Origin: Cyanobium usitatum str. Tous
GTDB taxonomy: Bacteria; Cyanobacteriota; Cyanobacteriia; PCC-6307; Cyanobiaceae
Direction of reading: 5' to 3'
Assembly: GCF_003011885.1 (NCBI RefSeq)
Contig: NZ_PXXO01000001.1
Span: 186,001-250,000 of the forward strand
DNA: 64,000 bases
Positions 40,070-46,439 of this stretch are shown piece after piece. The notes below the pieces were generated by a model. That model was not told where the DNA came from, did not search any database, and was given only the letters and a program-made list of their open reading frames with translations. Positions within the stretch are counted from its first letter, which is position 1, and the number at the start of each line of letters is the position of its first letter. The position numbers were made by a program, and so were the translations under genes.

Positions 40070-41176
40070 TCAGCGCACTGAGGGCTGGAATTGCTCGCTG
40101 CGGATAGCAGGGGTGAAATAAAGCTTGGCCATTTCTGCGCCATTGGCGATCCAATAAGGCAGTTTGCGCAAAACTTTTATTGCTCCAGGAGCACCGCTTG
40201 CGTCGGCCTCGCTGAGCTTGGCGTTGTTGCTAACCAGACGCTCTAGGCGGATGTAGAACTTGGGATGGTCAACATTCAGCACCACGGGGAACACTCTGGC
40301 GGAAGTCTCATTGGTTTTAGCAATCACGACCTTGTCGTATTCGCGAGCGTCGAGGCCCAGGGCTTCGTAGAACTCTTTGCGAGAAACATCTCGGACATAC
40401 ATGGTGGCAAACACTGCCAGCAGGAAGAAGCGGCACCAAAGCCTGGCGGTGAAGCCGCGCACGGTGTCTGGCTGAGCCTTCATCAAGGCATCAAAGAAAT
40501 CGCCGTGGCGGTTCTCGTCTTGGCACCAATTCTCGAAGAAGTTAAAAATAGGGAAGATCTTGCTTTCTGGATTTTGCTCTAGGTGGCGATAGATGGCGAT
40601 GTAGCGCCAGTAGCCAATCTTCTCGCTCAAGTAGGTAGCGTAGAAGATGAATTTAGGCTTGAAGAAGGTATACGACTTGCTGGCGGTCAAGAAGCCCAAG
40701 TCCAGTTGCAGCCCAAAATCTCCCATGGCTTTATTGAGGAAGCCGGCATGGCGGGCCTCATCGCGCGCCATGTGGGCAAAGCACTCGGCAAGTAGCGGAT
40801 TTTTGGTTTTGATGCGGCGGCTGAGCTCCTTGTAGAGCAGGAAGCCAGAAAATTCAGAGGTGCAGCTCTGCTCAAGAAACTCAACGAAAACCCTCCGGGT
40901 ATCAGGATCTAGCTTCTCGGCTGCCCCCTCAAACTCGCCGTTGCGCACGAAGTGGTGGCGGTTGTAATCCTTGCGGAACTCCTCGCATATGGCCTCAAGC
41001 TCCACCTCATTTGGCCGCAGATCCATCGCCGCAATGGCGTCGAAATCTGTGGTGTAGAAGCGGGGCGTCAGGATCGTGTCTTTGGCCGGATCTTTGACGG
41101 CTGGTGCACCGGGCGAGCCCACAGAGGCTTGACTGGGGCTGGTGGTAGCGCTGGCAGTTGCGGCTGGAGGCACCAT
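40070..41176 (-). CDS. acsF: Mg-protoporphyrin IX monomethyl ester oxidative cyclase AcsF
   Basis: A 368-residue diiron oxygenase that forms the fifth (E) ring of chlorophyll. Diiron ligands are visible in [19 protein letters not shown] (about 116-134), [14 protein letters not shown] (about 155-168) and [12 protein letters not shown] (about 234-245). The first about 35 residues are a Ser/Thr/Ala-rich extension. The enzyme acts at the thylakoid or plasma membrane with Ycf54. It lies within a long minus-strand run, 48 bases downstream of the DUF2996 gene. Confidence 0.96.
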
Positions 41177-42231: not shown

Positions 42232-42915
42232 CTAGGGGGAAGTAGTCCCGGCGGCTGGTGCCCCAGGGGATCCTGGCTGGTGCGGCGGCCCCTGCCAACG
42301 GCGCAGGTTGCCGAGCTCGTAGCCGAGCACGTCAAAGACGCGGATCACCAGAAAATCCACCATGTCTTCGATCGATTGGGGTTGGTGATACCAGGCAGGC
42401 ACCGGCGGGGCGATGCGGGCACCAGCCTCGGCCAAGGCCGTGAGGTTGCGGAGGTGCACCAGGCTCCAGGGGGTTTCCCTCGGGCAGATCACAAGGGGGC
42501 GCCCCTCCTTGAGGTGAACATCGGCGGCCCGCTCCACGAGATCCAGGGCTACCCCAGAAGCGATGCGCCCCACGGTTCCCATGGAGGCCGGCAGGATCAC
42601 CATACCGCGGGTTTTGAAGCTGCCACTGGCAATGCCAGCGGCCTGGTCGTTCCAGCGGTGGCAGCGCAGCTGCCCTGTGCTGACAGCGGTGCGTTCTCGC
42701 CAAAAGGCTTCCTGGGCATCAGGTTCTGAGGGCACCCTCAGTCCCAGTTCGGCCTGCCAGACGCCAATGGCTCCTCGCGAGGTGACCAGCTCCACCGCTT
42801 CTCCGGCCTCCAGCAGCAATTGCAGGGCCCGCTGGGCGAGGGGCTGGGCCGAGGCGCCAGAAACGGCCAGCACCACCGGCCCCTTTCCGGAGCTGGTTCC
42901 GGATGGCCGAACCAT
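42232..42915 (-). CDS. ubiX: Flavin prenyltransferase UbiX
   Basis: A 227-residue enzyme that attaches a dimethylallyl group to FMN, giving the prenylated flavin used by UbiD decarboxylases. Motifs: [16 protein letters not shown] (about 16-31), the helix with [20 protein letters not shown] (about 107-126) and [20 protein letters not shown] (about 139-158). It starts 3 bases after the RNase R homologue stop. Confidence 0.9.
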
Positions 42916-42918
42916 GGC

Positions 42919-45267
42919 TCAGACCTCGCTCAGCACCGCGATGGGCGCGAAGGGGTCGATCTCGTCATGGTCCTGGTTTTGGTACTGGTTTTGGTCCTGG
43001 TTTTGGGGATAGGAGTCGGCCGTCTCGCTCTCGTAGCCCTCGGGCAGCACCACGGCCAGGTCGATCTGGTGGCGCAGGGCATCCACCTTCTGGATCTCCA
43101 CCTGCACCTGGTCACCCAGCATGTATGTGCGACGGTTTTTGCGTCCCACCAGCCGGTTTTGGCGGGAGCGGTACTCGTACCAGTCGTCCTTGAGGGAGCT
43201 GACGTGCACCAGGCCTTCCACCTGGGAAGGGGGCACCTCCACGAAGAAGCCGTAGCTCTGCACACCGCTGATTACCCCAGGAAGCACCTGCCCCACTAAG
43301 GGCTCGGCTTGGCGGGCCTGCAGCATGGCCAGCAGGTCGGCCTGTAGTTCAGATAAAAAGCGGCGCCGGCCATTGAGACGCTGCACCAGCCCATGCTCCT
43401 GCACTTCCAGGTAGGGAGTGAGCTGGCTAGGGGCCAGCAGCGGCCAGTCGATGGCGCCGTGGCAGGCATCCGATGCCAGATCGACGGTGGTTTTGTGGCG
43501 CACACTGGGGCGGTCCTTGCCCTCGGTGAGCAGCAGCACCAGCAGTTGCTGGTTCCAGAGGTCGGCGTAGTGCAGGGTTGGGCAGCACCAGGGGGCTAGG
43601 GCCGCCCCCTCTTCCAGCAGGCCGGCCAGGGCATGGGGGCCGGGGCTGGTGCTGAGCTGGATCGGTTTGAGGATGGCCTGCAGTTGCTGCTGCAGGGCCC
43701 GGCTGCGGTCGGTGCCAGCGAAGGCGGCGGCCAATTCGGCCGCACTTGCATTGCCCTCTTCGCTCAGCTCCAGCGGGATGTCGAGGGCCAGGGCCGCCCG
43801 GGCAACGTCGTTGAGGTCGCTGGGGTCCGCCAGGGCATTGGTGGCATATATCGCCGGCAGTGCCAAGGTCGCGAGGTGCTGGCCTAGGGCCTGATCGGCC
43901 AGCAGAACCGCTTCGCGCATCAGGGCCAAGGGGTGGTGGGGCTCCAGGCTTACAAGCCAGCCAGCTAGGGCGCTGTCGGGGCCGGGCACAGCCAGATCTC
44001 CCAGGCTGTCGATGGCGGGCAGGGGCAGGTTGAGGTCGAGGGATCCAGCCGCTTGCCGCCGTTGGCGCAGCAGGCCAGTGACAGCGATGAGCTGCTCCAG
44101 CAGGCCCAGCTGCTCCTTCAGCCCCTTGAGTGCCGCTGGCACGGTGCGGCTCTTGGGTTTGCGCTCCGCCAGGGCGTTTAGTGCTTCCAAACCGACTGCC
44201 GCCACGGGATTGATCTGGCTGCGGCTGAAGCGGTAGTGCTCAAGGCTGCCGTCAGCGCCCAGCTCCAGGGCCACCGACAGGGCTGCCTGCACCTCGCCCA
44301 CCTTGAAGGCACTGGCCTTGGCCAGGGCTGGACTCAGCAGCGGTAGCCACTGGTTTCCGGTGCAGTAAGCGTCAGCCTGGTTGCGAAGCCAGGTGTCGAG
44401 GGTGCTGCCGGCGCTGAAGCGCTCTGCGATGGCCGGGGTGTGCACCCACAGGGTCCAGCCGCCGTCGCGCTCCTCAATGCCCAGGGCTGGCAGAGCGGGG
44501 GCCTCCTTGCCGCTCCATGGTTCAAGCAGCAGGGTGGCTTGGGCCGTGAGGTCGATGCGCTCCTTGGCGGCCAAGGTTTTGAGGGTTGCCCGTGGTGGCT
44601 GGGGGCGGCTGTGGAGCCGGTGCTTGGTCAGCAGCAGGTCTAGGTCGGCTGCTTCCCCCCCGTTGACAGGCAGGCTGCGCGCCACGTGACCCTGAGGGGC
44701 AAATTGCCCCACCGGATAGCGGTCCACCAGCACTTCCACCACCGATGCCTGTTCGCCATCGAGATGGGCGGCGTCGCCAGCCGGCAGCTCCACCGCCGTT
44801 AGCAGGCGGTCGTCTAGGGGGGTGGCCACCAGACGCTCATCCTGCTGCTCGACCTGGGCCAGCAGCGAGGTGGTGTGGCGCTCAAGAACGCACTGCACCC
44901 CGCCCTCGGGTGAGCGGCGACGGCCGCCTTCGCGGGTCACCTTGACCAGCACTCGGTCGCCATTCCAGGCGTGGTTGAGCTGGTGATCGCGGATGTAGAT
45001 GTCTTCGCCGCCGTCTTCGCGCAGGGCAAAGCAAAAGCCTTTGCTGGAGCAACGCAGCCGTGCTGCGATCAGTTCAGGGTCTTCGCGGCGGGCGACTCCG
45101 TCCTCACTGACCTCCAGCAGGCCAAGGCGGCTGAGCCCGTCGAGGCCGATCTGAAGCTGCTGCTTTTCAGCTTTTTGGCTGATGCCCAGGGCTTTTTCCA
45201 GCTTTGTCAGCGGCAGGGCTTCCTGGGCGGGCAGCTGGTCGAGCAGGTCGGCGACCGTGAACTTCAT
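42919..45267 (-). CDS. RNase R/RNB-family protein with apparently lost catalytic centre
   Basis: A 782-residue protein from the ATG at 45267. The family is clear from the N-terminal helix-turn-helix and cold-shock domains, the RNB domain (DGGWTLWVHTPAIAERFSAG; LMREAVLLADQALGQHLATL; ALPAIYATNALADP) and a C-terminal S1 domain (GVISGVQSYGFFVEV, VEGLVHVSSLKDDWYEYRS). In active RNase R, a segment with four aspartates (DGEDARDFDDA in E. coli) precedes GGWRLWV. Here the aligned stretch (about 44450-44565) reads WSGKEAPALPALGIEERDGGW, without those aspartates. The usual PIRRYADL is also altered, to PTLHYADL. It may bind RNA without degrading it. Confidence 0.8.
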   Translation of the reverse strand: MKFTVADLLDQLPAQEALPLTKLEKALGISQKAEKQQLQIGLDGLSRLGLLEVSEDGVARREDPELIAARLRCSSKGFCFALREDGGEDIYIRDHQLNHAWNGDRVLVKVTREGGRRRSPEGGVQCVLERHTTSLLAQVEQQDERLVATPLDDRLLTAVELPAGDAAHLDGEQASVVEVLVDRYPVGQFAPQGHVARSLPVNGGEAADLDLLLTKHRLHSRPQPPRATLKTLAAKERIDLTAQATLLLEPWSGKEAPALPALGIEERDGGWTLWVHTPAIAERFSAGSTLDTWLRNQADAYCTGNQWLPLLSPALAKASAFKVGEVQAALSVALELGADGSLEHYRFSRSQINPVAAVGLEALNALAERKPKSRTVPAALKGLKEQLGLLEQLIAVTGLLRQRRQAAGSLDLNLPLPAIDSLGDLAVPGPDSALAGWLVSLEPHHPLALMREAVLLADQALGQHLATLALPAIYATNALADPSDLNDVARAALALDIPLELSEEGNASAAELAAAFAGTDRSRALQQQLQAILKPIQLSTSPGPHALAGLLEEGAALAPWCCPTLHYADLWNQQLLVLLLTEGKDRPSVRHKTTVDLASDACHGAIDWPLLAPSQLTPYLEVQEHGLVQRLNGRRRFLSELQADLLAMLQARQAEPLVGQVLPGVISGVQSYGFFVEVPPSQVEGLVHVSSLKDDWYEYRSRQNRLVGRKNRRTYMLGDQVQVEIQKVDALRHQIDLAVVLPEGYESETADSYPQNQDQNQYQNQDHDEIDPFAPIAVLSEV
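42969..43004. repeat. Three 12-base tandem repeats near the RNB gene 3' end
   Basis: GGTCCTGGTTTT, GGTACTGGTTTT and GGTCCTGGTTTT in tandem on the plus strand. In the minus-strand gene they encode a QNQD/QNQY-type repeat in the tail after the S1 domain. Repeat number may vary between strains. Confidence 0.8.
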
Positions 45268-45402
45268 CGAGGGGAGGGCTGGTTGGCAGGGGGCCGCCCC
45301 GGGGAACCCGGGGTGCAGGGGCGGTGGCTGGACTGAAGCCGGTTGATGGCGGACTGGACTCGGAGCGATGCCCACGGCCGCCAAGGCCTTCATTTACTGA
45401 TA

Positions 45403-45705
45403 TTAATCAGCTGACGATTCTTCGGCTTCCGGGCTGCTCGATCGCTGGATCAGGCGTGCGCCGATCACCAGAAAGCCAACCGAGGCTGCCAGCTGCAGGG
45501 CATTGGTGGGGATCACGGCGGATAGGGAGCCGCCGGCGGCTGCGCCCAGCAGGCTGGCCAGTACCAGGGCAGCGGAACTGCCGGCAAACACCGCTCCAGG
45601 GCGGGTTGAGGTGCCACTGATGGTCACGATGGCCAGCTGGGTTTTGTCTCCCAGCTCAGCCAAAAACACTGTGGCGAAGGTGGAAGCGAGCAGGGCGAAG
45701 GGCAT
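45403..45705 (-). CDS. Half-size GDT1/UPF0016 family membrane protein (second of pair)
   Basis: A 100-residue protein with three hydrophobic helices and one copy of the signature AELGDKTQLA (about 16-25). GDT1/TMEM165 proteins exchange Mn2+ or Ca2+ and normally carry two such motifs in about 200 residues; here the two halves are separate genes in tandem, and probably act as a heterodimer. Similar paired 'hemi' exchangers affecting manganese are known in other cyanobacteria. It starts 15 bases after its partner. Confidence 0.85.
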   Translation of the reverse strand: MPFALLASTFATVFLAELGDKTQLAIVTISGTSTRPGAVFAGSSAALVLASLLGAAAGGSLSAVIPTNALQLAASVGFLVIGARLIQRSSSPEAEESSAD

Positions 45706-45720
45706 GGCGTAGCGCTGCGG

Positions 45721-46071
45721 TTAGGAGAGGGGAAGGTCGGAGGGGCTGGGAACCAGGCCCAATACGGCTTGCCGGCCCAGCCACAGGCCCAGGGCCACCA
45801 TCAGGATTCCCGCCAGGCGCTCCAACTGCTGTGGCGGCATCACCTTGGCCAGCCAGCGGCCCAGTAACACCCCCACCAGGCTGGAGCTAATCAGGGCCAG
45901 GGAGGCGCCAACAAACACGACAACTGGCCTGCCTGATTGGGCAGAGAGCAGGAGGGCGGCGAGCTGGGTCTTGTCCCCAAGCTCTGCCAGGAAGACCGTG
46001 GTGAAGGTGGTCAGGAAGGCGGCACCCCAACTGCCTGCCCGGTTGGCGCTTGGATCGGGTTCGCTGCTCAT
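45721..46071 (-). CDS. Half-size GDT1/UPF0016 family membrane protein (first of pair)
   Basis: A 116-residue protein with three hydrophobic helices and one AELGDKTQLAALL motif (about 29-41). It has a short polar N-terminal extension (about 1-14) that its partner lacks. It overlaps the Cys-cluster gene by 4 bases (ATGA) and is followed 15 bases later by the second half-size gene, so the pair is made together. Confidence 0.85.
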   Translation of the reverse strand: MSSEPDPSANRAGSWGAAFLTTFTTVFLAELGDKTQLAALLLSAQSGRPVVVFVGASLALISSSLVGVLLGRWLAKVMPPQQLERLAGILMVALGLWLGRQAVLGLVPSPSDLPLS

Positions 46072-46439
46072 AAACGCTTCCGTATGGCACGCCTAAAGCG
46101 TTTCATTACCCTGCCACGGCCTCCGTATTCACTGCGGATCTGCTGCAGGCAGCAGCCAATAGCCAGGCGGTCGCCGGCGCCTGGATCATCAACCGTGCCA
46201 AACAGCTGCACCAGGTTGGCCACGTTGCAGAAGTCAGGCCGGTCCGCATAGATGCGGCAACTACGCGCGCCGGTGTTGAAGTTGATGCACCAGCCATCGG
46301 GGCCAACCATGGCCAGATACTGCTCCTGCTGCTCTGGGCTAAGCGCCTCGATTGCTTCCTGACGCAGACTGGGATCCAGCCGGCAGCAGGCTCCGCAGCC
46401 GCTGATGCATCCCCAATGGGCCCGATCGTCCCTGGCCAT
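46068..46439 (-). CDS. YkgJ-family cysteine cluster protein
   Basis: A 123-residue soluble protein with a Cys-rich metal or Fe-S type motif: [13 protein letters not shown] (about 11-23), then [21 protein letters not shown] and a late CC pair. This is the CxxCxxCC-type cluster (UPF0153, YkgJ). The function is unknown. It is divergent from psb30 and overlaps the first GDT1 half, suggesting a shared operon. Confidence 0.85.

Follow-up and report, generated by a model that had tools for sequence, protein, structure and literature searches.

A picocyanobacterial form of Zam with a replaced RNB catalytic site, and the uneven loss of catalytic residues among its relatives

Ribonucleases of the RNB family such as RNase R (E. 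coli Rnr; PDB 5xgu) and RNase II (2ix1) possess four catalytic aspartates and a set of motif arginines, the most critical aspartate being Asp209 of RNase II according to PMC3293843. According to the excerpted text of PMC9145284 (2022), cyanobacteria have two RNB genes, and 'Zam is a redox-regulated member of the RNB-family' with a degenerate catalytic site; the loss of the catalytic site in Zam has thus been in print since 2022 and is already known. In the excerpts, the first cold-shock domain of Zam carries C73 and C79, an invariant and redox-active cysteine pair; the gel mobility of the purified Synechococcus PCC 7002 protein depends on its redox state, and Zam function in PCC 7002 is lost when either cysteine is changed (PMC9145284). 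Deletion of zam is reported to lead to acetazolamide resistance, with phenotypes published for PCC 7002 and PCC 6803; with the substrates tested, purified PCC 7002 Zam displayed neither nuclease activity nor RNA binding, but the protein aggregates (PMC9145284, excerpts). Our search of the open-licence literature brought up no further publication about the active site of Zam, although one may still exist.

The other RNB protein of cyanobacteria, Rnb (the sll1290-type RNase II of PMC3293843), is encoded by the second RNB gene of the genome studied here. Unlike Zam, Rnb retains its active-site residues (in all nine rows fetched) and lies on the opposite side of our tree. The available parts of two publications disagree on the number of RNase II-family proteins in Synechocystis: the 2012 abstract of PMC3293843 counts only one, and the review PMC10989914 lists two, sll1290 and sll1910 (zam).

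Outside bacteria, yeast Ssd1 (7am1) is an RNase II-family protein which, like Zam, has lost catalysis and conserved its cold-shock domains (PMC8934651, PMC8097288, both in part). Loss of the catalytic site at least four times, with the cold-shock domains kept, is reported for fungal Dis3L2/Ssd1 (PMC8097288, in part), and the recurrence of such losses among related lineages resembles the situation in Zam. Ssd1 descends from fungal Dis3L2 and is likened to Zam here as an analogue, our tree having been built without fungal rows. RNA targets are known for Ssd1, and we know of no redox cysteine pair in it.

The window is the whole stretch of 64,000 nucleotides of Cyanobium usitatum str. Tous that was analysed. 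It is close to certain that one of its genes (Table 1) is zam, in a picocyanobacterial form of the published cyanobacterial RNase R-like protein. The window protein shares with Zam (sll1910 of Synechocystis PCC 6803; Synechococcus PCC 7002) the domain order, the degenerate RNB site, the C73/C79 pair and the intact Rnb encoded alongside, as far as the excerpts of PMC9145284 describe them. Its cysteines are found at exactly positions 73 and 79, the same numbering as in PCC 7002, and 138 of 141 Zam rows retain both; the exceptions are L142, a row cut at the N-terminus, L140, with G in place of C79, and L099, which lacks both. The window's family differs from the published Zam in a more extreme replacement of the catalytic site (a W..xAPxLPA-type segment and a PTLHY-type motif), which is shared among picocyanobacteria. 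The first-pass annotation of the window, made from the sequence alone, had recognized a degenerate RNase R homologue and had missed that its family was already named and studied: the flagged protein belongs to a nearly universal cyanobacterial family and is not a single-strain oddity. We prefer the start at 45267 over an alternative in-frame ATG upstream at 45393, which would give 824 aa, because all 19 aligned sequences, the window's own among them, share M1-K2-F3.

Table 1. Coordinates of zam, its encoded features and its neighbours in the window
Feature	Position	Strand	Basis
zam, RNase II/R family without catalytic aspartates, 782 aa	42919..45267	-	open frame, Pfam, C73/C79; nearest published family Zam
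CSD1/OB_RNB domain, residues 70-130, holds C73 and C79	44878..45060	-	Pfam OB_RNB 70-125
Degenerate RNB domain, residues 237-581	43525..44559	-	Pfam RNB, 130.8 bits
Replaced catalytic segment WSGKEAPALPALGIEERDGGW, residues 251-271	44455..44517	-	alignments with RNase R and relatives
PTLHYADL instead of PIRRYxDL, residues 563-570	43558..43581	-	alignments with RNase R and relatives
C-terminal S1 domain, residues 657-738	43054..43299	-	Pfam S1, 45.4 bits
ubiX-like flavoprotein gene, directly downstream of zam	42232..42915	-	Pfam Flavoprotein
Two adjacent GDT1 cation/proton antiporter genes, upstream of zam	45403..46071	-	Pfam GDT1, both
Rubrerythrin-family gene, three genes downstream of zam	40070..41176	-	Pfam Rubrerythrin

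Domains, fold and catalytic site of the window protein

The window protein matches the Pfam families OB_RNB (70-125), CSD2 (88-131), RNB (237-581) and S1 (657-738), all above cut-off. Its RNB match far exceeds the Pfam cut-off of 29.3 bits, and the score against the NCBIfam RNase_R model TIGR02063 (178.5 bits) is far under the curated cut-off of 597.85; a search of the strain's own genome (G000) placed the degenerate RNB domain at C1:229525-230559. An AlphaFold model built with 19 sequences (mean pLDDT 80.6, pTM 0.77) had RNase R chains as its top matches in both structure lists, one of them from Foldseek. It aligned with the RNase R chains 7dcy at Z 37.3 (rmsd 5.8 over 605 residues) and 5xgu at Z 35.7 (rmsd 5.2 over 596 residues), with RNase II 2ix1 at Z 34.3 and with yeast Ssd1 7am1 at Z 30.0 (rmsd 6.1 over 591 aligned residues). 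According to the model, the RNase R fold is retained. Across 27 rows of the window's family, the mean share of the majority residue is 0.84 in CSD1, 0.77 in S1 and 0.63 in CSD2, then 0.60 in the replaced segment, 0.58 in the N-terminal helical part and, lowest, 0.54 in the RNB domain. The Pfam matches and the predicted fold bear out the first-pass description of an RNase R domain order, and CSD1 and S1 are strongly conserved. Model confidence is low near the two cysteines, with a mean pLDDT of 63 in both blocks spanning residues 61-80, too low for the model to lend support to a C73-C79 disulphide geometry.

In a multiple alignment that has rnr of E. coli (NC_000913) as its RNase R reference, the columns of D272, D278, D280 and D281 read E, P, L and P in the window protein. 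A pairwise phmmer alignment with 5xgu places the gap elsewhere and still puts no aspartate at the catalytic columns, and the translation itself has no aspartate between D239 and D268. Both arginines of PIRRY are absent, the window protein having PTLHY there. The same state, without an aspartate at any of the four columns and without either PIRRY arginine, is found in every one of the 27 distinct rows from the window's GTDB family, the window protein included; in 80 named relatives neither arginine occurs, and a lone aspartate, at the first column, is present in just one of them. The segment that occupies the site has a pattern of its own. In an alignment of 19 sequences that includes the window protein, E265 never varies and W251, P257 and A261 are each conserved in no fewer than 90%; a loose form of the pattern (W, then AP-x-LP or alike) occurs in 64 of the 80 named relatives. 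The claims that the catalytic aspartates had been lost within 44440-44570 and that the second hallmark PIRRYADL had become PTLHYADL therefore hold, and a search of the active-site segment for four aspartates placed elsewhere found none and did not refute the loss. Without the metal-binding aspartates and the arginines of the motif, the window protein is presumed unable to hydrolyse RNA: judged by its sequence, it should not be capable of metal-dependent hydrolysis.

The strain's genome has one other RNB gene, located on contig C12 (61193-62071), which contains TIDDADTCDIDDG and PIRRYADL and thus an intact site, D-x5-D-x-D-D with PIRRY. A second RNB gene with intact aspartates, for which the first-pass annotation had proposed a search, is accordingly present, and we rejected the idea of a strain without an intact RNB enzyme. 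The pattern D-x5-[D/E]-x-D-D with PIRRY recurs in 9/9 Rnb rows fetched, six of which have E in the second place. At least one RNB match was detected in each of 116 genomes of the class, with a single match in three (G214, G237 and G246), in a count where a split domain may count twice. In the multi-contig genomes G214 and G246, the sole RNB match is a Zam (L054 with D1-D3-D4 and L047 with D3-D4, respectively), and no Rnb was found. Third, shorter RNB proteins occur in G229 (L161, open over 635 aa) and G226 (L162, open over 486 aa); their acidic catalytic columns are intact, and they sit on long branches apart from Zam. A plasmid search with Rnb returned distant matches only.

Catalytic residues across the Zam family

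The fresh detail here is the unevenness of catalytic-site loss among the relatives of Zam. None of 141 distinct Zam rows has all four aspartates and 80 have none, the former count agreeing with the published statement that no Zam has a complete site; these row counts are not frequencies, because searches list the best matches first. The remaining rows retain D3-D4 (25 rows), D1-D3-D4 (19), D2-D3-D4 (1), D3 alone (11), D1 alone (2), D4 alone (2) or D1 with D3 (1). When glutamate is counted together with aspartate, four acidic residues are still found in 0/141 rows, and three in 21. The arginines of PIRRY are less affected in the 114 rows outside the window's family: the first is kept in 68 and the second in 107.

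A tree was built from 95 Zam rows, 11 other RNB rows and E. coli RNase R, with the catalytic columns left out. The Zams all fall on one side of the root branch with an SH-aLRT of 88, obtained with a quick method and long outgroup branches, and there is moderate support for Zam grouping apart from cyanobacterial Rnb. All 30 rows with D3-D4 lie within one group of 34 (SH-aLRT 95), which is not basal under the outgroup root; the long outgroup branches leave the root itself uncertain, and support from a quick method is less trustworthy. If no regain is assumed, the outgroup root implies 9 losses of D3-D4, and a set of 188 rootings gives a range of 4 to 19. To say that D3-D4 was lost several times appears safe on this reconstruction, but the exact number is not. 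As with fungal Ssd1, the catalytic site of Zam seems to have been lost by degrees and more than once.

One possible history, which we put forward tentatively, is that a redox-switched non-catalytic role of the cold-shock domain arose first in a live nuclease and that catalysis was then lost stepwise, several times. Lineages that keep D1-D3-D4 (19/141) or D2-D3-D4 (1/141) together with PIRRY-type arginines may then still cut RNA, and some aspartate-free Zams (Alr1240-like) may cut by other chemistry. If true, this stepwise loss would be a bacterial parallel to fungal Dis3L2/Ssd1 and would contradict the inference, drawn in the literature, that no Zam is active as a nuclease. Natural intermediates within the class could date the loss of catalysis and test the origin of a redox RNA regulator from an active nuclease.

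Several Zams, including L048 (G262) and L058 (G267), keep D1, D3 and D4 with PIRRY-type arginines, and it is possible that proteins of this type are live enzymes. The Pfam RNB score of Zam against that of Rnb from the same genome is 325.8 versus 253.2 bits in G262 and 320.9 versus 259.5 bits in G267.

Possible roles of a Zam without catalytic aspartates

The function that we favour for the window protein, and consider reasonably probable, is that of a non-catalytic, redox-switched regulator binding RNA and/or RNase E; the RNA ligand, the RNase E partner and the transfer to this strain are inferred. Under this reading, the RNase R scaffold of two cold-shock domains, RNB barrel and S1 would be kept without hydrolysis, a C73-C79 disulphide would switch the first cold-shock domain, and the photosynthetic redox state would act through this switch to alter RNA turnover. 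The actual 3'-5' degradation would be done by the Rnb paralogue with its intact site. The first-pass annotation had read the protein as an RNA-binding pseudo-enzyme, which comes close to the reading of Zam in the excerpts of PMC9145284 and is supported here, with RNA binding remaining the inferred part.

The protein may instead regulate the translation or stability of specific mRNAs without RNase E, in the manner of yeast Ssd1 and perhaps with its RNA contacts moved to the outer surface. We regard this as a credible minority possibility. The predicted structure shares its fold family with the pseudonuclease Ssd1, and fungi display the same combination of kept cold-shock domains and an eroded RNB domain (PMC8097288, PMC8934651, both in part). 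The published Zam model, itself a hypothesis, nevertheless favours RNase E in the available text (PMC9145284), and the literature searched reported no RNA targets of Zam.

The link between Zam and RNase E depends on Alr1240 of Anabaena. PMC9145284, as excerpted, equates Zam with the protein of Anabaena PCC 7120 that binds RNase E, and the review PMC10989914, in the part available, ascribes to Alr1240 RNase II-like properties and the degradation of unstructured RNA; either activity is kept there, or the assignment or the assay is in doubt. In two genomes that we read as Nostoc-like (G040 and G019; L243 and L244), zam is followed on the same strand by a ubiX-like gene and a gene of 233/234 aa. 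This run fits the unit alr1240-alr1241-alr1242 given in the excerpt of PMC10287535, so that together with the statement in PMC9145284 it makes it likely that alr1240 is zam. All ten Nostoc-like Zam rows lack aspartate at the four columns and read xxEN there. The activity that the review describes conflicts with these aspartate-free sites, and it would come from another source, reflect a different chemistry or follow from a wrong identification. This disagreement between the activity described for Alr1240 and the aspartate-free sites of its probable orthologues gives a well-defined question for further work. The catalytic columns of L243 and L244 read TVEN.

The described activity of Alr1240 (PMC10989914, in part), set against 10/10 Nostoc-like rows without aspartate, is also a reason to consider a residual or altered-chemistry nuclease in the window protein, acting through other acidic residues (E249, E255, E265, E266 and D268). 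The invariance of E265 in the 19 aligned sequences points the same way. We find such a nuclease improbable: both motif arginines are lost, the column of RNase II Asp209 is a leucine or a gap in the window protein, and Zams that retain D3-D4 likewise have E at the position of E265, which therefore looks structural. Altered chemistry, which the first-pass annotation had offered as its second option, found no direct support for the window protein, and the non-catalytic, redox-switched regulator is the reading that we retain.

Selection, distribution and gene neighbourhood

That the gene is decaying, or that an error of sequencing or frame is to blame, can be dismissed for practical purposes: the RNB domain and the N-terminal helical part evolve fastest and the matched stretch of one named relative (L185) is interrupted by a stop, but the frame is open, the state of the site is the same in 27/27 family rows and nearly so in the 80 named relatives, dN/dS is low (below) and gene order is conserved. 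On these grounds we rejected both a frame error, given the open frame and the same state in relatives, and a pseudogene, given dN/dS and gene order. By a simple Nei-Gojobori calculation with ten relatives 77-98% identical, dN/dS of zam is 0.04-0.21 over residues 1-740 (10 pairs), and zam is under purifying selection. By part, dN/dS is 0-0.07 in CSD1, 0.01-0.10 in S1, 0.07-0.28 in RNB and 0.11-0.36 in the N-terminal helical part; in the replaced segment it is 0.03-0.35, from only 33 codons.

With the window protein as query, a Zam match with E of 1e-20 or better was found in 230 of 232 genomes of the class, and Zam is near-universal in the class as sampled. The two exceptions, G195 and G237, have no Zam match even at 1e-5. 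G237, a single contig of 4.2 Mb, has one RNB gene only, of the Rnb type. In a phylum-wide sample, 92 of 194 genomes match Zam, all in the window's own class, and the 20 non-matching genomes among the misses listed are all outside it.

The neighbourhood of zam was compared in the 57 relatives with full flanks among the 80 named relatives fetched, which had been picked by similarity to the window protein. All 57 have ubiX downstream on the same strand and matches to GDT1 upstream, and 56 have downstream a counterpart of the rubrerythrin-family gene, which we take to be acsF-like. Tandem single-domain GDT1 genes stand in the window beside a gene for a CxxCxxCC metal-chelating domain (45403-46439). 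Matches to both GDT1 genes and to this domain gene are present upstream of zam in 57/57 relatives, with the proviso that the two GDT1 paralogues can match each other's gene. A more distant family member, G157, has GDT1-GDT1-zam and the acsF-like gene in order, with no ubiX match between. The operon of zam, ubiX and GDT1 that had been proposed for the window is plausible from the gaps, 3 bases from the zam stop to the ubiX start and 135 bases between zam and the upstream GDT1 gene; the operon itself remains putative.

The C-terminal tail of the window protein contains a Q/N-rich run, YPQNQDQNQYQNQDHD, encoded at 42964-43011 of the window, and the DNA of this run looks by eye like a short imperfect repeat.
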